Shown in pieces: positions 1,349 to 35,882 of a stretch of 64,000 nucleotides of DNA; within the stretch, counting starts at the first letter, position 1, and every line of letters begins with the position of its first letter. The notes under the pieces are model-generated. The model made no database searches, had not been told where the DNA came from, and was given only the letters and a program-made list of their open reading frames with translations. The position numbers and the translations under genes were made by a program. Source of the stretch: an uncultured Victivallis sp. (lineage in GTDB: Bacteria > Verrucomicrobiota > Lentisphaeria > Victivallales > Victivallaceae); the NCBI RefSeq assembly GCF_944391105.1, contig NZ_CALXSK010000003.1:62001-126000 (forward strand). Direction: 5' to 3'.

Positions 1349-2917
1349 ATGGGCAGAAAGAACGGTTATCCCTACCAGGCCGGTGTGATCGACGTCGGCG
1401 CGCATTCGACGCGGCTCGATCTTTTTGAGGTGGCTTCGGGGGGGCGGATCACGCTTCTGGAGAGCCTTTCCAGAACGGTGAATCTCGGGTACGACGTTTT
1501 CCGGCACGGTTCGGTTTCGCCGGAGAATCTGTCGGCGCTCGGAACGGTCATGGCGGATTTCTCCCGGAAACTCGCCGAATACCGGGTGCGGAGCTGCCGG
1601 GTCGTGGCGACTTCGGCTGTGCGCGAGGCGTTCAATCGGGAACTGGTCATCAACCGGATTCGCAGCGTCTCGAATCTTTCTCTGGAAATCCTTGAGAGTC
1701 AGGAGGAAACCAGAATCTGTTTTCTTTCCATGCGTGAGGCGCTGCGCCGGACGCTGCCGTTCGACGAGCTCGCGGGACTCTGCCTTATCGTCGGCACCGG
1801 TTCGCTGCTGGTGAGCTGGTTCGACGGAGGGCTCATGCGTTTTTCGGAGGCAGTTCCGCTCGGGACGAGCCGTCTGGTCGATGCGTTCGGACGCTCCTCG
1901 TTCTCAATCGAGCAGATTCTTGAAACGCTCCGGTCGCAGGACATCCGCCAGCGGCTGCGCGAAACTGTGGGATTGGATCCTGCGCGGCCGGTGACGCTCG
2001 TGGCGATGGGGGCTTCGGTTCGGATGCTCACCGGCGGCTTCGCCGGCGAGAGCCCCGAGGGCGGTGAGGATGAGGTGTTGAAACTTTCCTGTGACGATCT
2101 CGCCGCCGCTGTCAAGCGGGCGGTCGCCGCGGACCCGGCGGCGCTGGCTGCCGAATACAAGATTCCGGAGAGTTCCGCAGCGGGCGTGTCGGCATGCGCG
2201 GCGATTCTCGGATATTTCCTTGAGGAGTTCAACTGTGAAATGTTTCTCTGCCCCGGGGCAACGACCCGCACTGCGCTGATTCAGGATCTGGTCCGCCGCA
2301 GCCGGAAAGGGGAGAAGGATCCGTTTCACGACGATCTCGTCGCTGTCTGCGGCGCGGTCGGGCGCAAATACGGATACGACGCGCAGCACGCGGCCAACGT
2401 GGCGGGGATCGCTGCGGCGCTGTTCGAAAAGCTGCGGAGAAATTTTGAATTTGCCCCGCGTGCGGCGGTGCTGCTTGAGGTCGCCGCGTTTCTGCATGAC
2501 ATCGGGCGGTTCGTCGATACGCGCCAGCACCACAAACACTCGTGCTACCTCATCAGCAACCTGCAGCTGCCGGGGATGAGCGATACGGAGCTGCGGGTGG
2601 TGGCGGCTGTGGCGCGCTACCATCGCAAATCCGGCCCGAAGGAGTCGCATCCGGAGTACATGCTTCTCTCCGCCGAGGACAAGGTTACGGTGTTGAAACT
2701 TGCGGCGATTCTGCGCGTGGCCGATGCGCTCGACTGCACCCGGCAGGGGCGTTTTCGGCGGATGAAACTTATTCTGCGCGGACACACGCTGGTCATTCAG
2801 GTGCCGGCTTCGGGGAGTTTTCGCCAGGAGCGGCTCTATCTCGAACTCAAAGGGGGGATGTTCAACGAGGTGTTCGGCCTTGAGCTGAAGATTGAGGAGG
2901 TTCCGTTTGCATCATGA
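1349..2917 (+). CDS. Ppx/GppA-type phosphatase with C-terminal HD domain
   Basis: The 522-aa protein combines an ASKHA-fold Ppx/GppA domain (about residues 8-305) with a C-terminal HD domain (about 325-500). This is the architecture of long exopolyphosphatases, which remove terminal phosphate from polyphosphate or act on pppGpp. The first phosphate loop reads GVIDVGAHSTRLDLFEV and the conserved acidic stretch reads LESQEETRICFL. The second loop, usually DIGGGSTE, is here VGTGSLLVS and lacks the acidic residue, so activity or specificity may differ. The HD part shows FLHDIGRFVD and later a YHRKS stretch. An AAGGAG site lies 8 nt before the ATG. The stop overlaps the polyphosphate kinase start by 4 bp (ATGA), which supports a ppx-ppk operon. 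Confidence 0.85.
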   Translation: MGRKNGYPYQAGVIDVGAHSTRLDLFEVASGGRITLLESLSRTVNLGYDVFRHGSVSPENLSALGTVMADFSRKLAEYRVRSCRVVATSAVREAFNRELVINRIRSVSNLSLEILESQEETRICFLSMREALRRTLPFDELAGLCLIVGTGSLLVSWFDGGLMRFSEAVPLGTSRLVDAFGRSSFSIEQILETLRSQDIRQRLRETVGLDPARPVTLVAMGASVRMLTGGFAGESPEGGEDEVLKLSCDDLAAAVKRAVAADPAALAAEYKIPESSAAGVSACAAILGYFLEEFNCEMFLCPGATTRTALIQDLVRRSRKGEKDPFHDDLVAVCGAVGRKYGYDAQHAANVAGIAAALFEKLRRNFEFAPRAAVLLEVAAFLHDIGRFVDTRQHHKHSCYLISNLQLPGMSDTELRVVAAVARYHRKSGPKESHPEYMLLSAEDKVTVLKLAAILRVADALDCTRQGRFRRMKLILRGHTLVIQVPASGSFRQERLYLELKGGMFNEVFGLELKIEEVPFAS

Positions 2918-5100
2918 CGAAGAAGAAGGAAACAGAGTTCAACGACAGCGAGCTTTTCATCAGCCGCGAGCTTTCGTGGATGGATTTCAACGCGCGGGTT
3001 CTTGACGAAGCGGAGTGTGTTGCCAATCCCGTGCTGGAGCGGTTGAAGTTCATTGCGATTTTCAGCAGCAACCTCGACGAGTTTTTCATGGTGCGCATCG
3101 CGGGGCTGCGCCAGCTTGTGAAGATGGGCAAGGAACTGCCGGACCCGGCGGGAAACCGCCCGTCCGACCAGCTCCGGAAGTTGCGCAAGAAACTTGAAAA
3201 ACTGCTGCGCCGCCAGCACGACTGTCTGACGGACGAAATTCTCCCGGAACTTGCGAGACACGGGGTGCGGCTGGTTACGCCGGCCGGGATCGCTCCGGCG
3301 GTGCGCGGGGAGTTGTCGAGTTACTTCCGGGCGCAGGTTCTGCCCGTTCTGACGCCGCTGGCGGTCGATTCGGCGCATCCGTTCCCGATTCTGAACTCCG
3401 GTTCGATTGAGATCGCGGTGAGCATGCGTCCGGCGGGGCGGGACGAACTGGTCTACGCGTTTGTGGAGGTCCCGGAGTTGCTGCCGCGGTTCGTGGAGGT
3501 GCGCGACGGACAGCCGGGACGCGCATTTATGCTGCTTGAGGATCTGATTATGGACAACCTCGGGACGCTCTTCACGGGCTGTGAAATCGAAGAGTTTTTC
3601 CCGTTCCGCATCACAAGGGACATGGATTTTTCGGTCGAGGACAGCGACGCCGAAGATCTCATGCAGAGCATCGAGAAGAATCTGCTTCAGCGTCGCCACC
3701 GCGAACCGATCCGGATCGAACTCATCGCCGGCAGCCGCGGGCCGCTTGTGAAGTGGCTGGCCAGGGAGTTCCGTCTCGACGAGCAGTTCTGGTATTTCGT
3801 GCGCGGTCCGCTGCATTTGAAACAGTTTTTTGAACTGGTCGGCAAGGCACATCTGCCGGAATTGCTCGAACCGGCATGGCCTCCGGTGATGCCGTCGGCA
3901 TTCTCCGGGGAACAGACGGTGTTCGAGACGATCTCCGCACACGGCAGCGTGCTGGTCGCGCCGCCGTACCACTCGTTTGCGCCGATCATCCGGTTTCTGG
4001 AGGAAGCGGCGGAGGATCCGGATGTGCTTGCGATCAAGCAGACGCTCTATCGCGTGAGCGGCAACTCCCCCGTGGTGCGAGCCCTGCAGCGTGCGGCCGA
4101 GAACGGCAAGCAGGTGACGGTCGTGGTCGAGCTCAAGGCGCGTTTCGACGAGGGGAACAACATCGTCTGGGCGCGGCTGCTGGAGGAGTCCGGCGCACAT
4201 GTGGTCTACGGAGTGGCGGGGCTGAAGGTTCACTGCAAGGCGCTGCTGGTGGTACGGCGTGAAGAGGGGGCGATCCGTCGCTACGTGCATCTCGCGACCG
4301 GAAACTACAACGACAAGACCGCGGCGATCTATACCGACATGGGAATCATGTCGTGCGATCCGGATCTCTGTTTCGACGTGGCGAACCTCTTCAACGTGCT
4401 GACCGGCTACTCGTCGCCTCCGGCGGCGTGGCGCAAGATCGCGGCTTCTCCTTTCGACATGCGCCGCCGGGTTTCCGCACTGATCGAGCGGGAGATCGAA
4501 CACTCCACGCCCGATCATCCGGGGCGGATCATCGCGAAGATGAACAGCCTGTCGGACGAGAAGATCATCCGGCTGCTGCACCGCGCGGCCGACGCGGGGG
4601 TCGAGATCGACCTCATCGTGCGCGGAATCTGCGGCTACAAGCCGAAGCCGGGGCAGGAGAATGCGCGGGTCATGAGCATTGTGGACCGTTATCTGGAACA
4701 CACGCGGCTCTTCTACTTCGGCAACGGCGGGGATCCGGAGTACTATCTTGCGAGTGCGGACTGGATGTACCGGAATCTCGACCGCCGGGTCGAACTTCTG
4801 TTCCCGGTCGAGGATGAGCGGATCCGTGAAATCTGCCTGCGGCTGCTGCACTTTCAGCTCGCTGATACCGACAAGGGGAGACGGCTGCTCGGCTCGGGCG
4901 TTTACACCAGGCCGAAGGTCGATCACTATTCCGGTGCGCGCAGCCAGTACAACAGCTACCGTTATTTGAAGGAGCTTGCCGAGCGCGAAAAGCTGCGGAC
5001 GACGGGCGAGGCGCTGAAGGTCTACACGAGCCCCGACCGCCCGGTTCCGAGTTTCAGCGACCTCTCCGGCGATGAACCCGGGGAGACGGAGGAGGAATGA
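2914..5100 (+). CDS. ppk1: Polyphosphate kinase 1
   Basis: Polyphosphate kinase makes inorganic polyphosphate from ATP through a phosphohistidine. The 728-aa length is normal. The N domain has the usual RELSWMDFNARVLDEA and FSSNLDEFFMVR signatures (residues ~18-70). The catalytic PLD-like half has YHSFAPIIRFLEEA, IKQTLYRVSGNS and VVELKARFDEGNNI. The first active histidine lies in GLKVHCKALL, and the ATGNYNDKTA loop and NLDRRVELLFPV follow. The gene overlaps the ppx-like gene by 4 bp and the following acetyltransferase by 4 bp, so translation is coupled. Having synthesis and degradation enzymes together implies control of the cellular polyphosphate store. All key motifs appear intact. Confidence 0.96.
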   Translation: MTKKKETEFNDSELFISRELSWMDFNARVLDEAECVANPVLERLKFIAIFSSNLDEFFMVRIAGLRQLVKMGKELPDPAGNRPSDQLRKLRKKLEKLLRRQHDCLTDEILPELARHGVRLVTPAGIAPAVRGELSSYFRAQVLPVLTPLAVDSAHPFPILNSGSIEIAVSMRPAGRDELVYAFVEVPELLPRFVEVRDGQPGRAFMLLEDLIMDNLGTLFTGCEIEEFFPFRITRDMDFSVEDSDAEDLMQSIEKNLLQRRHREPIRIELIAGSRGPLVKWLAREFRLDEQFWYFVRGPLHLKQFFELVGKAHLPELLEPAWPPVMPSAFSGEQTVFETISAHGSVLVAPPYHSFAPIIRFLEEAAEDPDVLAIKQTLYRVSGNSPVVRALQRAAENGKQVTVVVELKARFDEGNNIVWARLLEESGAHVVYGVAGLKVHCKALLVVRREEGAIRRYVHLATGNYNDKTAAIYTDMGIMSCDPDLCFDVANLFNVLTGYSSPPAAWRKIAASPFDMRRRVSALIEREIEHSTPDHPGRIIAKMNSLSDEKIIRLLHRAADAGVEIDLIVRGICGYKPKPGQENARVMSIVDRYLEHTRLFYFGNGGDPEYYLASADWMYRNLDRRVELLFPVEDERIREICLRLLHFQLADTDKGRRLLGSGVYTRPKVDHYSGARSQYNSYRYLKELAEREKLRTTGEALKVYTSPDRPVPSFSDLSGDEPGETEEE

Positions 5101-17240: not shown

Positions 17241-19577
17241 TTACCAATCCTTTTCCACTTTGCGTTCTCTGTACGAGGGGCGAACCCGGTCGCGCAGTGT
17301 TTTTTCTTCATCCTGCATCATCTGCAGCAGCTGCTCGGCGGTCTCCTCGGAGAGTTGACCCTCTTTTTCTTCGTCCCCGGCTTTGCCGGTTTCGGAGTTT
17401 TCCTCCGCAGCTTCAGCCTCGGACTTCTGCTTTTCCGACTGCTCCTGATCATCCGACTTCTGTTCGGCGTTCTGCTGCCTGGTGGAGTCGGAACTCTTTT
17501 GGCCGTCGTCCTGATTCTTCTCCTCGCCGGATTGCGGCTGCTGTTTATCTTCTTCGCCGTTTTCGCCATTATCGCCTGGGGAGGCGAGGGCGCGAGCCGC
17601 TTCGTCGAGGTGTTTCTGCGCCTCGTCGCTCTGATTCTCCCGACGCTTCTGCGCGGCTTTTTCCAGCTCCTGCCGGGCGCGTTCGGCCTGTTCGCTCATC
17701 TGTTTCTGATTCAGTTCATCGGCTTGCTGTTTCAGCTGCTCGGCTTCGCGCTTCGCCTGTTCGATGGCACGATCCGTGTCCTGCTGATTCTGCTGATTTT
17801 GCTGATTCTGCTGATTCTGCTGATTTTGCTGACTCTGCTGATCCTGCTGACTCTGCTGATTCTGCTGACTCTGCTGATTCTGCTGATTCTGCTGATTCTG
17901 CTGATTTTGCTGATTCTGCTGATTTTGCTGATTTTGCTGACTCTGCTGATTCTGCTGATTTTGCTGACTCTGCTGATTCTGCTGATTTTGCTGACTCTGC
18001 TGATTCTGCTGATTCTGCTGATTCTGCTGACTCTGCTGACTCTGCTGACTCTGCTGACTCTGCTGACTCTGCTGATTCTGCTGATTCTGCTGATTCTGCT
18101 GATTCTGCTGTTGGGCCTGCCGGGTCTGCTGCTGCGCCTTTTTCTGTTGTTCCTTGAGTTCCTCAATCTTTTTCTTTAAGATTTCTGCCCGGCGGCGATC
18201 TGTCGCGAGACGGGAGAGATGGTTCGGCATATCCCCGGATGCGCTGAGGCTCTGCCGGTAAAGCTCTTCCGTCTTTTCGATCCGCCCGAGCGTTTCATCG
18301 AGCATCTTCAGCGCGGGATCGAGCTGCTGCGCCTGCACCGACTCCACCGCTTTCTTCAGATTTTCCTCCGCACTTTTGTGAGCCGCAATACCGAGGTTGA
18401 ACAGCGACCGGGCTCGAACCTCTTCGTCGCCGACCCCTTCGCGGATCGCCTGCTCGTAAAGTCCGGCAGCCTCCTCCTCGCCAGCAAGCTGTTTTTCACG
18501 TGCCTGGTTGTAAAGCTCCGCCGGAGTTGCCCCGGTTGCACAGAACGGCAACAGCACCGCCAGCGGCAGAACCGCGCGCCAATGGAACGGACGCTCCCCG
18601 AGCAGCAGATAAATGGCAAACAACACCACCGCCGCCGCAAGCAGAAACGGGAAGTCATCATACGGAATCATCCGGTCGACCGCTTCCTGCTGCGCTTTGC
18701 CGAGCTGATCGATCCGTGCTTCCAGCTGGGAAATCCCGGGATCGGTGACCGTGCTGCGCAGATACATCCCGCCGGTCTCTCTTGCAAACTCCTTGAGCTT
18801 TTCCTCGTTGAGGCGGCTTGTGGCAAGTTCGCCGTCGCTCGTGCGTTTGAAGCCGCCGTTCTCATCCGGCACCGGCGCCGCAATGCGCGGATCCCCGAGA
18901 CCGACCACGAAGAGCGGAATATTGCGAGCCTTGAGTTCCGCGATCGCAGCACTGCTGTTGCCGGAGAGTTCATCGCCGTCGGTAACGAGCAGCACCGCCC
19001 GGTTTCCCGCCGCCGCCTCGAATGCGTCAAGCGCGATCTTGATCGGCCGCTCCAAATCGGTTCCGCCGACCGGAATGCTCTCCGGCCCGAGCTCATCGAT
19101 GTATTGCAGAAGTGTCGTCTTGTCCGACGTGAGCGGACATGCGAGAAACGCCCGCCCGGCGAACGCCACGAATCCGAACCGATCCGAACCGGTTCCCTCC
19201 ACAAGTTCCCGGAGCAGATATTTCGCGTGTTCGAGCCGTGACGGTGCGACATCGGTCGCCCACATGCTCTTGGATACGTCGAACAGCACAAGAATGTCCC
19301 TGCCGAATCCCTGCTGGGAAATCACCCGGTAGGAACGATAGGGACGCGCCGCCGCCCCGACCAGAAGCAGCATCACGCCGACGAGCAGCGCAAAGCGGAT
19401 TCTCCGTTTGGCGGGCGAATATTGCACGGCCGCCGGGTCCGATGCGGATTGTCCCAGCAGCAAGGTGAGCATTTTTTTCCGTTTCGAAGCCGCATAGAGC
19501 CCCGCTCCGGCAAAGAGCAAAAGCAGTGGCAATGCGAGCCACAGCAGTTGCGGATATACAAAATTCATAAAATTCAT
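17241..19577 (-). CDS. BatA/BatB-BatC fusion: VWA domain, TPR, Gln/Asn-rich tract
   Basis: The 778-aa protein starts with two membrane helices (to about residue 85) and a von Willebrand A domain. Its MIDAS motif is DVSKSMWATD, with GGTDLERPI and VTDGDELSG further on. A third helix near 310-330 ends the BatA/B unit. A TPR-like region follows (LFNLGIAAHKSAEENLKKAV), then a 110-residue Gln/Asn/Ser repeat and an acidic Glu/Gln/Lys-rich tail, as in BatC. Bat proteins work with MoxR and DUF58 proteins in envelope stress or aerotolerance; neither partner is in this window. Two ATGs (19577 and 19568) fit the AAAGGAGGGG site poorly and about equally well. Confidence 0.85.
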   Translation of the reverse strand: MNFMNFVYPQLLWLALPLLLLFAGAGLYAASKRKKMLTLLLGQSASDPAAVQYSPAKRRIRFALLVGVMLLLVGAAARPYRSYRVISQQGFGRDILVLFDVSKSMWATDVAPSRLEHAKYLLRELVEGTGSDRFGFVAFAGRAFLACPLTSDKTTLLQYIDELGPESIPVGGTDLERPIKIALDAFEAAAGNRAVLLVTDGDELSGNSSAAIAELKARNIPLFVVGLGDPRIAAPVPDENGGFKRTSDGELATSRLNEEKLKEFARETGGMYLRSTVTDPGISQLEARIDQLGKAQQEAVDRMIPYDDFPFLLAAAVVLFAIYLLLGERPFHWRAVLPLAVLLPFCATGATPAELYNQAREKQLAGEEEAAGLYEQAIREGVGDEEVRARSLFNLGIAAHKSAEENLKKAVESVQAQQLDPALKMLDETLGRIEKTEELYRQSLSASGDMPNHLSRLATDRRRAEILKKKIEELKEQQKKAQQQTRQAQQQNQQNQQNQQNQQSQQSQQSQQSQQSQQNQQNQQNQQSQQNQQNQQSQQNQQNQQSQQNQQNQQNQQNQQNQQNQQNQQSQQNQQSQQDQQSQQNQQNQQNQQNQQNQQDTDRAIEQAKREAEQLKQQADELNQKQMSEQAERARQELEKAAQKRRENQSDEAQKHLDEAARALASPGDNGENGEEDKQQPQSGEEKNQDDGQKSSDSTRQQNAEQKSDDQEQSEKQKSEAEAAEENSETGKAGDEEKEGQLSEETAEQLLQMMQDEEKTLRDRVRPSYRERKVEKDW
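17781..18111. repeat. 9-bp simple-sequence repeat in the bat gene
   Basis: About 37 units of a CTGCTGATT-like 9-mer (variants CTGATTTTG and CTGACTCTG) fill 330 bp. Read on the minus strand they encode the Gln-Gln-Asn/Ser tract. Because the repeat has no stops, long Leu/Ile-rich and Ser/Ala/Asp-rich frames appear on the plus strand as artefacts. Copy number is likely to vary between strains and to be hard to assemble from short reads. Confidence 0.9.
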
Positions 19578-34099: not shown

Positions 34100-34132
34100 A
34101 AACCGGGGGAGGTGGTAAATCCCCCGGTTTTT
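34100..34132. terminator. Bidirectional rho-independent terminator
   Basis: AAACCGGGGG pairs with CCCCCGGTTT around an 11-nt loop. T-runs lie on both sides, so it can end the locus 1 transcript (+) and the convergent coiled-coil gene (-). Confidence 0.9.
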
Positions 34133-34135
34133 CAT

Positions 34136-34315
34136 TTATCTCACCTGAGGTTGTTCGAGGGCATCAAGTCTTTGTTCCAGATGGCGGCGCCTTTGAGTAT
34201 ACTCATTGGTGATGAGAGCAAACTCGGTTTCGAGGATCTCAATCTCCTCAAGCAATTCGAGGCGAGCTTTGGTTTTTTCGATCGATTCTCTTGTGTTTGT
34301 CTGCGGATTCGACAT
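34136..34315 (-). CDS. Small coiled-coil protein, 59 aa
   Basis: A short gene overlapping the end of the HTH gene in another frame. Its ATG follows a strong GGAGGAAGT site and the product is one charged helix: ESIEKTKARLELLEEIEI, then ITNEYTQRRRHLEQRLDALE. The heptad pattern and codon use look like real coding, whereas the overlapping frame of the HTH gene reads as Ser/Arg/Lys-rich nonsense. It ends TAA at the terminator. Function is unknown; dimerisation or partnership with the HTH protein is possible. Confidence 0.6.
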   Translation of the reverse strand: MSNPQTNTRESIEKTKARLELLEEIEILETEFALITNEYTQRRRHLEQRLDALEQPQVR

Positions 34316-34776
34316 ACTTCCTCCATGAATGTTGTGGTTTGACGGCAGTTGGTCTGCTTGTTTTTATGTTTGCGATATGTGAGCACCGCTGCGAGTTCCG
34401 GAATCTGCTGGAGTCGTCTGGTGACCATTTTGTGGAGAGCCTGGCGGGATACGCCGCGGGTTTCGGCAAGTTCGCTCAGGTTCAGTTCCGGACATTCGAG
34501 CTTCTGTGTGACCAGAGCGAGGGAACGGATATCCAGAGCCGCCATGAATGTGATGACTTCCAGCAGATCGGCGCGGGAGTAACGTCGATCCTGTTCCGCT
34601 TTGCGCATTCGGTTTTCGGATGGCAATCGTCTGCGCGACAGGATTTGTTCATTTTGCTTTTCCGGCGGGGAGCTCAAGGTCATCAGCGGAGGATCAGCCG
34701 CTGTTCGGCAATGCCGTTTCCATTTGCAGGTTCGGCATTCGATCAGTTTGTTGTAACGTTTCCCGTAACACTCCAT
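34141..34776 (-). CDS. Cys-rich N-terminus plus helix-turn-helix protein
   Basis: The 211-residue frame begins with a possible zinc motif (Cys3, then IECRTCKWKRHC) and a proline turn. A helical DNA-binding-like segment follows (residues ~65-135): YSRADLLEVITFMAALDI and LSELAETRGVSRQALHKMV, the latter a clear helix-turn-helix. Its start has AAGGAGAAGG just upstream. The last 60 residues are atypical and overlap the 59-aa coiled-coil gene, so either the two genes really overlap or a frameshift near 34320-34340 separated one longer HTH-coiled-coil protein. I do not recognise the family. Confidence 0.6.
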   Translation of the reverse strand: MECYGKRYNKLIECRTCKWKRHCRTAADPPLMTLSSPPEKQNEQILSRRRLPSENRMRKAEQDRRYSRADLLEVITFMAALDIRSLALVTQKLECPELNLSELAETRGVSRQALHKMVTRRLQQIPELAAVLTYRKHKNKQTNCRQTTTFMEEVCRIRRQTQENRSKKPKLASNCLRRLRSSKPSLLSSPMSILKGAAIWNKDLMPSNNLR

Positions 34777-34994
34777 TCCTTCTCCTTTCCTTTTTCCTGT
34801 TGATCTGGTGTGGCTGATCGCTTCACCATGTTAGGTTGTGCTTAAAATATATGTAACTGTTTTCTTAATGTCAATGTTTTAAAAAATAAAAAAACAAGAT
34901 ATTTTTCTAAATTAAGTGAAAAATATATTAAAATGGTGTATATTTAAGGATGGAGTTAATGTATATTGTCTGCAGGGAAGCTCAGGAGAAGAAA
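34777..34994. other. AT-rich divergent intergenic region
   Basis: It separates the HTH gene (-) and the LexA-like gene (+). Much of 34830-34950 is A/T. A candidate promoter for the plus gene is GTGAAA (34916-34921), a 17-bp spacer and TATATT (34939-34944). I see no other gene. Confidence 0.45.
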
Positions 34995-35720
34995 ATGAAG
35001 GCACATGTGAATGGATGGGAGACGATCGAGAGACAGTTGTCGCAACTGGGGAGAAAGCAGGGGGAGCTTGCCCGGTTGTTGCAGATAACGCCGGCGGCGG
35101 TATCACAAGTTAAGAAGGGGGTATATTTGCTGAATCCGAAGCAGTTGGAAAAGATTGCGACTTTTCTTCAATTTGACGCGGTGATGCGGAATGAGTTTTA
35201 CACGGAGTTGTTCAATGCCCGTTTGCTGGGAGGCGGGGTCAGCTCGTCGTCCGGAGGCGTCCGTTACCGTGTCAGTCGGGAGCGGCATGAGGTGGAAACG
35301 GGGCGAAAGCGGGAGATTCCGCTGGGGGATCTTGAATTGCTTGCGGACTATGTCGCGCCTCTGGAAACGATGCGGAATTATTTATTGCGGAAAAGCCCGG
35401 AACGTTATTTGGGTACGATCAGCGGGGAGGAGGTATGTGCGCTGCGTGTCGGGGCCGAGTTTGAGCAGGCTGGATTGACATCGGGGAGTTTGATTATGAT
35501 CGAGAGTGGGAGAATTCCGGATTCTGGTGGATTGAGTCTGGTTGGGATGCGGGATGGGCATTATCTGCTGCGTGAGTTCATAGCGGAAACGGATCGCATC
35601 GTGCTTCGGCCGATGTTGCTGGATTCCGGAGCGGAGTTGGAGCTCAAGCGTTCCGAGGTATCGGATTATCTTTTATGGGTGCATCCGGTTCTGGAGTTGA
35701 CGCTTCGTTTCTGCAAATGA
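34995..35720 (+). CDS. XRE-type regulator with LexA/S24-like C-terminal domain
   Basis: A 241-aa protein. The N-terminal helix-turn-helix (residues ~8-60) shows IERQLSQLGRKQGELARLLQ and ITPAAVSQVKKGVYLLNPKQ. After a linker, residues ~135-240 look like the beta-rich S24/LexA domain: RVGAEFEQAGLTSGSLIMIE, then DSGGLSLVGMRDGHYLLREF and IVLRPMLLDSGAELEL. The usual catalytic Ser-Met pair is not evident, so self-cleavage is doubtful. The ATG used here has AGGAG 8 nt upstream; an earlier in-frame ATG at 34950 does not. It lies divergent from the other HTH gene and may regulate it. Confidence 0.7.
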   Translation: MKAHVNGWETIERQLSQLGRKQGELARLLQITPAAVSQVKKGVYLLNPKQLEKIATFLQFDAVMRNEFYTELFNARLLGGGVSSSSGGVRYRVSRERHEVETGRKREIPLGDLELLADYVAPLETMRNYLLRKSPERYLGTISGEEVCALRVGAEFEQAGLTSGSLIMIESGRIPDSGGLSLVGMRDGHYLLREFIAETDRIVLRPMLLDSGAELELKRSEVSDYLLWVHPVLELTLRFCK

Positions 35721-35805: not shown

Positions 35806-35882
35806 CGGGGTGTAGCGCAGTGGCTCAGCGCGTCTGCTTTGGGAGCAGAAAGTCGTGGGTTCGATCCCCACCACCCCGACCA
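35806..35882 (+). tRNA. tRNA-Pro (anticodon TGG)
   Basis: The acceptor stem CGGGGTG pairs with CACCCCG. The D arm is AGCGCAGTGGCTCAGCGC, the anticodon loop TTTGGGA lies between TCTGC and GCAGA, and the T arm is GTGGGTTCGATCCCCAC. The CCA end is encoded (35880-35882). It decodes CCA and, by wobble, other proline codons. Confidence 0.97.

Follow-up and report, generated by a model that had tools for sequence, protein, structure and literature searches.

The locus described here lies within a window of 64,000 nucleotides, which is the whole stretch of DNA that was analysed. It comprises two overlapping genes on the reverse strand, one for an HTH protein and one for a small coiled-coil protein, and a repressor gene that diverges from them. 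The features are as follows:

34108..34125, reverse strand: terminator-like hairpin after the coiled-coil gene
34136..34315, reverse strand: small coiled-coil gene (P0002, 59 codons, 59 aa), ATG at 34315
34141..34315, reverse strand: dual-coding overlap of 175 bp, with a substitution pattern that looks like purifying selection in both frames
34141..34776, reverse strand: HTH gene (P0001, 211 codons, 211 aa), with a Cys-rich N-terminus, the HTH and a conserved C-terminal tail
34320..34324, reverse strand: Shine-Dalgarno (SD) GGAGG of the coiled-coil gene, within the HTH frame
34782..34786, reverse strand: Shine-Dalgarno AGGAG of the HTH gene
34846..34874, reverse strand: promoter-like TTGACA-17-TATATT (11/12), upstream of the HTH gene
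34916..34944, forward strand: weak promoter-like GTGAAA-17-TATATT (9/12), upstream of the XRE gene
34950..35720, forward strand: divergent XRE/CI-like repressor gene (P0003), with HTH_3 and a C-terminus that is S24-like by alignment
35806..35882, forward strand: tRNA-Pro(TGG), downstream of the repressor gene

The small frame is shifted by 2 nt with respect to the HTH frame, and in the window the two stop codons are 5 nt apart. A first-pass annotation of this DNA had already pointed to the 59-codon frame with its ribosome site, and it had described the pair as facing a LexA-like gene over an AT-rich region, like a small regulatory cassette; both descriptions hold, with the XRE gene at 34950-35720 (+) as the divergent neighbour beyond the AT-rich gap. 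The tRNA-Pro(TGG) adjoins the repressor gene, tRNA genes being a common kind of phage integration site, and the locus of another genome, G074, has an ORF of a type that occurs antisense to tRNAs. Elsewhere in the window, the ORF at 17241-19577 (-) carries a long Gln/Asn/Ser-rich repeat at 17241-18200.

With regard to the two proteins, the cysteines C3, C14, C17 and C23 of the HTH protein are invariant in 27 sequences. P0001 has no significant match in Pfam or PHROGs, matches no curated late-regulator family and has no PDB sequence match below E 0.01; its remote relative at L128 matches phrog_36, 'transcriptional regulator', at 8e-4. The fold model of P0001 is modest (pLDDT 67.2), with a helix at 150-166 and a tail that is mostly below pLDDT 50 past residue 170. 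Many of the first Foldseek matches of this model are sigma region 4, all with E 0.8 or worse (best 0.84), and the predicted fold appears weakly sigma-region-4-like. The small protein is predicted to form a single helix over residues 4-54, with a mean pLDDT of 91.6.

The pair was followed through a comparison set of 78 genomes, which all belong to the window's GTDB family and include its own genome (G000). P0001 was matched in 49 of them at E 0.01. A search of the family genomes with a small-protein alignment built from 27 pairs returned 30 places in 29 genomes, namely the 27 pairs, a stand-alone copy (G067), a C-terminal remnant (G027) and a match in G037 (E 0.008) that looks like chance. Both frames are open at all 27 family loci that bear the pair, which belong to 12 genera. 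The pair is also present, with both frames open, at three loci of f7, a second family of the same taxonomic order (G097, G098 and G099), and it is found in one phage contig, L149, bringing the total to 31 loci from different assemblies. The named contigs that bear it are those of Victivallis, Victivallaceae and Victivallales MAGs and of strain zth2 (CP071032.1). Among the 27 family pairs the distance between the two stops ranges from 5 to 71 nt, and GGAGG stands four nt 5' of the small ATG in all except L024, where it is GGAGA.

That the HTH and the coiled coil adjoin and overlap at one place would also suit a frameshift, by sequencing error or mutation, that split one HTH-coiled-coil protein, as the first-pass annotation had proposed as one of two options. 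The same layout, with an internal start and SD, recurs in the 31 loci and both frames are open, which leaves this explanation next to no probability; the other option, a true 175-bp overlap of two genes, is borne out by frames that are open in the 27 family loci and conserved. The comparison of HTH homologues by length that had been suggested as a check gave 27 full-length family relatives, all of which have the 59-aa frame as well, contrary to the outcome named there as counting against the pair (relatives that keep the 211-residue frame and lack the small one). The five closest tail-less relatives (L008, L009, L031, L051 and L139) have neither the tail nor the small gene.

Tail-less HTH relatives without a coiled coil also occur in G073, G075, G003, G001 and a prophage of G068, and no coiled-coil partner was recognised among the ORFs listed at 17 further loci with remote tail-less relatives. 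No further case of a small gene beside a closed HTH tail was found among the 30 small-protein places of the 78 genomes. The stand-alone coiled-coil copy of G067 (L141, about 3899-4063) has stops in both other frames and lies ~4.3 kb from the TerL of that genome. The remnant in G027 (L140, about 1950-2060) lies inside another open frame, and no HTH gene was recognised there.

The last 60 or so residues of the HTH frame had been taken for noise in the first-pass annotation, a reading that the following comparisons overturn. With the small protein fixed and local codon usage, the tail frame would be open by chance with a mean probability of 0.10 per sequence (0.13 for the window), values whose product is meaningless as a probability, the sequences being related. 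In 300 simulated sets a mean of 24.4 of the 27 sequences hold a stop (fewest 20), as against none observed. Between genera, tail identity is 0.393, compared with 0.248 +/- 0.006 under a null model in which the small proteins are fixed and the codons random, the largest value of 300 simulations being 0.269. In the converse null, with the tails fixed, the small proteins are 0.182 identical, against 0.527 observed.

Substitutions in the overlap were sorted into those silent in both frames (SS), in the small frame only (SN), in the tail only (NS) and in neither (NN). The rates come from 10 disjoint pairs taken together, which cover 20 of the 27 loci (two genera giving more than one pair); they are 0.633 for SS (9.5 of 15.0 opportunities), 0.268 for SN, 0.163 for NS and 0.079 for NN, and the upstream, single-coded body of the HTH gene has a pS of 0.586 and a pN of 0.250. 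SN and NS are below the body pS in all 10 pairs. By Fisher tests, which take sites as independent and here have only 15 SS expected, SS is no different from the body pS (p 0.80) and is higher than SN (p 0.004). A phantom frame laid over the single-coded body as a control gave 0.575 for SS and 0.586 for SN, that is, no drop. Since SS changes run at the single-coded silent rate while SN changes are halved, and the control has no such drop, there is a strong indication that both frames of 34141-34315 are protein-coding, one for the tail of the HTH protein and the other for the 59-aa coiled-coil protein. Codon use gave a further comparison. Where a degenerate amino acid is conserved between genera, its codon is also shared at a rate of 0.452 for the body, 0.545 for the small frame and 0.653 for the tail, and the corresponding values for four closely related members of the window's genus are 0.519, 0.827 and 0.896.

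The outcome of these tests favours two proteins under selection over either noise or a nucleic-acid element. If only the coiled-coil gene were real in the overlap, the HTH protein would end functionally near residue 150 and its tail would be unselected read-through, for which one may cite the tail-less HTH relatives and the low model confidence of the tail. The SN rate of 0.268, compared with a body pS of 0.586, a drop absent from the phantom-frame control, weighs against this, as do a tail identity and an absence of stops that lie far outside the null, and the only stand-alone coiled coil found (G067) has stops in both other frames. An unselected tail is contradicted by the substitution pattern and is granted very little probability. 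The excess conservation could reflect a DNA or RNA element such as a pac/cos site, an operator or a structured RNA in place of a second protein, given that the overlap holds very conserved DNA words and that the phage copy (L149) lies directly 5' of terS. Such an element, which appears very improbable, fits poorly with SS sites that vary at the single-coded silent rate, though these are few (9.5 of 15.0), with the 0 pairs of consensus RNA structure found by RNAalifold in the overlap, and with the avoidance of stops in 27 of 27 sequences.

Of 30 loci examined, 19 have a homologue of the facing repressor that diverges from the HTH gene, the tail-less L037 and L038 among them. In two cases, L040 and L043, the HTH gene and the divergent repressor are separated by a short ORF. 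A single-sequence search did not find the homologue at the other 11 loci, of which L125 begins too near the contig end to tell. Several relatives start at the residue that matches M16 of P0003, so the true start of the window's gene may be near 34995. P0003 has no Pfam S24 match at E 1, the catalytic Ser of a self-cleaving S24 domain is not recognisable in it, and the Ser position is not conserved in the alignment. The S24 domain is clear in the repressor of L123 (2e-14) and weaker in that of L045 (1.2e-5), and the L122 repressor keeps Ser-Met. In G067, the stand-alone coiled coil starts divergently from an XRE-S24-like gene, so called from its own sequence and its clustering with the L122 repressor, and the HTH partner is absent; an antirepressor role of the coiled coil has been considered for this reason.

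The IMG/VR contig L149 holds the pair at 2852-3505 and 3343-3516, followed in order by TerS, TerL, portal, a protein in scaffold position and the major head protein or capsid, with matches to phrog_309 (TerS, 1.6e-50), phrog_38 (TerL, 5.9e-62), phrog_145 (portal, 1.8e-51) and phrog_1328 (capsid, 2.6e-31). At L122 and L125, two loci of another family, the pair also precedes TerS and TerL homologues, and at L134, L143 and L146 remote tail-less HTH relatives lie directly 5' of TerL. Among the loci listed, neither that of the window nor the others from Victivallaceae have the pair upstream of terS. Two viral contigs match P0001, L148 (tail-less) and L149, and the small protein is matched in L149 alone; a search of annotated phages with P0001 gave no match. 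The capsid has at most 27% identity to annotated phages among the matches listed (8 of 13), and TerL reaches 48% to two Synechococcus phages among those listed (8 of 473). Taken together, gene content and order strongly suggest that the pair derives from a phage control module. A tail-less, Cys-rich HTH relative was also seen in two regions that resemble prophages: L170, which has five GTTGACG matches 5' of ORFs with an SD, and L174, where there is one GTTGACA so placed.

The head genes of such a phage appear to be widespread in Victivallaceae. With TerL from L122 (E 1e-20), portal from L149 (1e-10) and capsid from L149 (1e-20) as queries, matches were obtained in 65, 65 and 64 of the 78 genomes, respectively, some of which are incomplete. 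All three are absent from the same 13 genomes (G004-G006, G015, G017, G018, G030, G044, G058, G062, G065, G066 and G072), and G070 is without a match for the capsid only. All 27 pair-bearing genomes are TerL-positive. An HTH-family match at 1e-5 is absent in 12 of the 13 genomes without head genes, G044 having a remote one, and in four of the 65 TerL-positive genomes (G002, G011, G021 and G027). The TerL, portal, capsid and scaffold genes have tailed-phage PHROG matches. They are single-copy in most genomes, some having a second, prophage-like copy; TerL is in fragments in G001-G003, and the portal match of G077 is truncated. G075, in which the small gene and the tail are absent, holds a capsid remnant (L289 1418-1675, G075:C31, residues 296-381) beside a more distant copy.

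These genes are often dispersed. In the window's genome the pair, TerL, capsid and portal are on contigs C3, C23, C29 and C41; the TerL, scaffold-capsid and portal operons occupy three places there (L164 on C23, L285 on C29 and L286 on C41). The pair, TerL, capsid and portal of G067 lie at 2.78, 2.24, 0.57 and 1.86 Mb, and those of G076 at 1.97, 1.60, 1.77 and 1.79 Mb, the last two being separated by host genes. Linked cases also exist, since portal and TerL are adjacent in G064 and about 4 kb apart in G070, and head genes are clustered in genus g15 (L175 and L176; others by coordinates). In this genus TerL, portal and capsid are retained and the HTH relative is a remote one without the tail, and G001-G003 keep portal and capsid genes without the pair. 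A second terminase (Pfam Terminase_6C) was noted on the window's own contig, at G000:C3:5614-6072 (L152, L165), about 90 kb from the pair.

The head genes seem to be maintained by purifying selection, with dN/dS of 0.02-0.17 in 14 of 15 head-gene pairs, the remaining one being saturated. Distances among capsid, portal, TerL and HTH are congruent (Mantel r 0.84-0.91, 0 of 2000 permutations, 13-21 genomes), and between genera only r is 0.42-0.63. In 72 of 75 cases the nearest neighbour of these four proteins is a member of the same genus, as judged by genus labels.

A possible common signal of these operons is a TTGAC(A/G) box, which was spotted by eye 5' of portal genes and then counted in those very sequences. 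The portal sample consisted of 26 loci out of 65, from which two were dropped by eye: G011, whose start is called far downstream, and G070, whose upstream region resembled a neighbouring gene, TTGAC being present there too. TTGAC occurs within 110 bp upstream of 23 of the 24 portal genes, 46-72 nt before the start and preceded by G in 18 of the 23, compared with 38 of 221 control genes over the same 110 bp, the controls not being known promoters. The -10 match at portal genes is no better than in the controls. At the heads of scaffold-capsid operons the box was seen in 15 genomes out of 26, in no case immediately 5' of the capsid gene. For TerL or the heads of its operon the count is about 10 of 17, some cases being less convincing than others. 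The box resembles a plain -35 hexamer, and the best sigma-70 score is 9.19 of 12 over the 27 pairs, compared with 8.17 over the 24 portal genes.

Genome-wide, scans with up to two mismatches gave a modest excess over the reversed pattern, 55 against 37 in G076 and 68 against 53 in G077. Exact matches number two in G076, namely the portal and scaffold-capsid heads that had served to derive the pattern. G076 also has two matches with one mismatch, of which one precedes a phrog_2175 gene (740 kb) and one precedes no ORF; six of the eight such matches in G077 were inspected, and three lie before the portal, the scaffold-capsid genes and the homologue of the phrog_2175 gene and three before no ORF. 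A tail-tube-like reading of the phrog_2175 protein was discarded, as PHROGs describes it as an Ig-domain protein only. The box is also found without the pair, 5' of the portal genes of G002 and G003 and at the scaffold-capsid heads of G001-G003, so that both the box and the genes can persist without the pair or the tail. Because the controls are not known promoters, the box is a candidate and a lead for a shared regulon and no proof of one.

The model that we favour, and consider reasonably probable, is that of a dual-coding phage control module that has been domesticated and switches dispersed head genes, in a manner like that of gene transfer agents (GTAs). The HTH protein would be a late-gene activator, RinA/Ltr-like in position. 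The coiled-coil protein would start at its own SD within the HTH message, so that both proteins would be made together, and it may serve the HTH protein as a dimeric partner or counter the facing repressor as an antirepressor. In Victivallis and its relatives the module, perhaps that of a dispersed GTA-like system, would have been domesticated and, when derepressed, would turn on the dispersed head genes that share the TTGAC(A/G) box. The occurrence of the box in G001-G003 without the pair makes this full model slightly less likely. The more specific proposal, of an undescribed GTA-like system in Victivallaceae in which dispersed terminase, portal and scaffold-capsid operons stand under one phage-derived switch (a repressor that can no longer cleave itself, and a late activator that shares the DNA of its tail, in another frame, with a coiled-coil cofactor), is put forward tentatively, with a probability that we place a little below even.

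The pair and repressor might instead be a dual-coding phage relic with a local or other role, the head genes being otherwise controlled or forming no working particle. The likeness of the box to a -35 hexamer, its presence in G001-G003 without the pair, and the head genes that genus g15 keeps without the pair leave room for such a relic. The shared absence, congruent distances and purifying selection of the head genes argue against it, as does the box 5' of 23 of the 24 portal genes examined, and we regard a relic as rather unlikely. The head genes make up a family-wide set that is often dispersed and seems to be purified, and the analysis offers both genes and a candidate promoter box.

ArpU is a phage late transcriptional regulator. 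According to PMC13123087, the RinA gene lies upstream of terS, and the genes of Ltr regulators precede the promoter that they control. Like these late regulators (RinA of phi11 and Ltr; PMC13123087), the pair lies directly 5' of terS-terL in L149, L122 and L125, the HTH protein is predicted to bind DNA, and a CI-like repressor is nearby in L122. Unlike them, P0001 has no significant sequence match and is 211 aa long as against about 130 (PMC13123087). It also differs in its Cys-rich N-terminus, in a tail co-encoded with a second protein, and in not being beside terS in the window. P0003 resembles the XRE/S24 CI-like repressors in its HTH_3, in a C-terminus that is S24-like by alignment and in diverging from the operon it faces, and differs from them in the absence of a recognisable catalytic Ser and of a Pfam S24 match.

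With regard to GTAs, the criteria given in PMC9662315 are proteins derived from tailed phages, endogenised often at several loci, vertical inheritance or co-diversification with the host, and particles that carry largely random host DNA, are unable to package their own genome and deliver what they carry. Like RcGTA, BaGTA and BhGTA (PMC9662315), the Victivallaceae head genes derive from tailed phages, are endogenised at several loci and are purified. They may be vertically inherited, the distances of the four genes agreeing with one another and with the genus labels. They differ in belonging to another bacterial phylum, in often being single dispersed operons and in that their particles and any transfer of DNA are putative (PMC9662315). 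A literature search found no report of a Lentisphaerota gene transfer agent, the three papers naming both appearing unrelated by title.

When two bacterial genes overlap at length on one strand, the case is readily put down to faulty annotation. The 175-bp pair, with constraint in both frames over 12 genera, the internal comparison offered by SS sites and the phantom-frame control, therefore makes a clean test case for two proteins that share DNA. It resembles the bacterial same-strand overlaps described in PMC2542354 in that the downstream start lies inside the upstream gene, with a two-nucleotide shift. It differs from the overlaps described there (PMC2542354) in that its 175 bp are kept over genera, two families and a phage contig, and in that constraint was measured in both frames.
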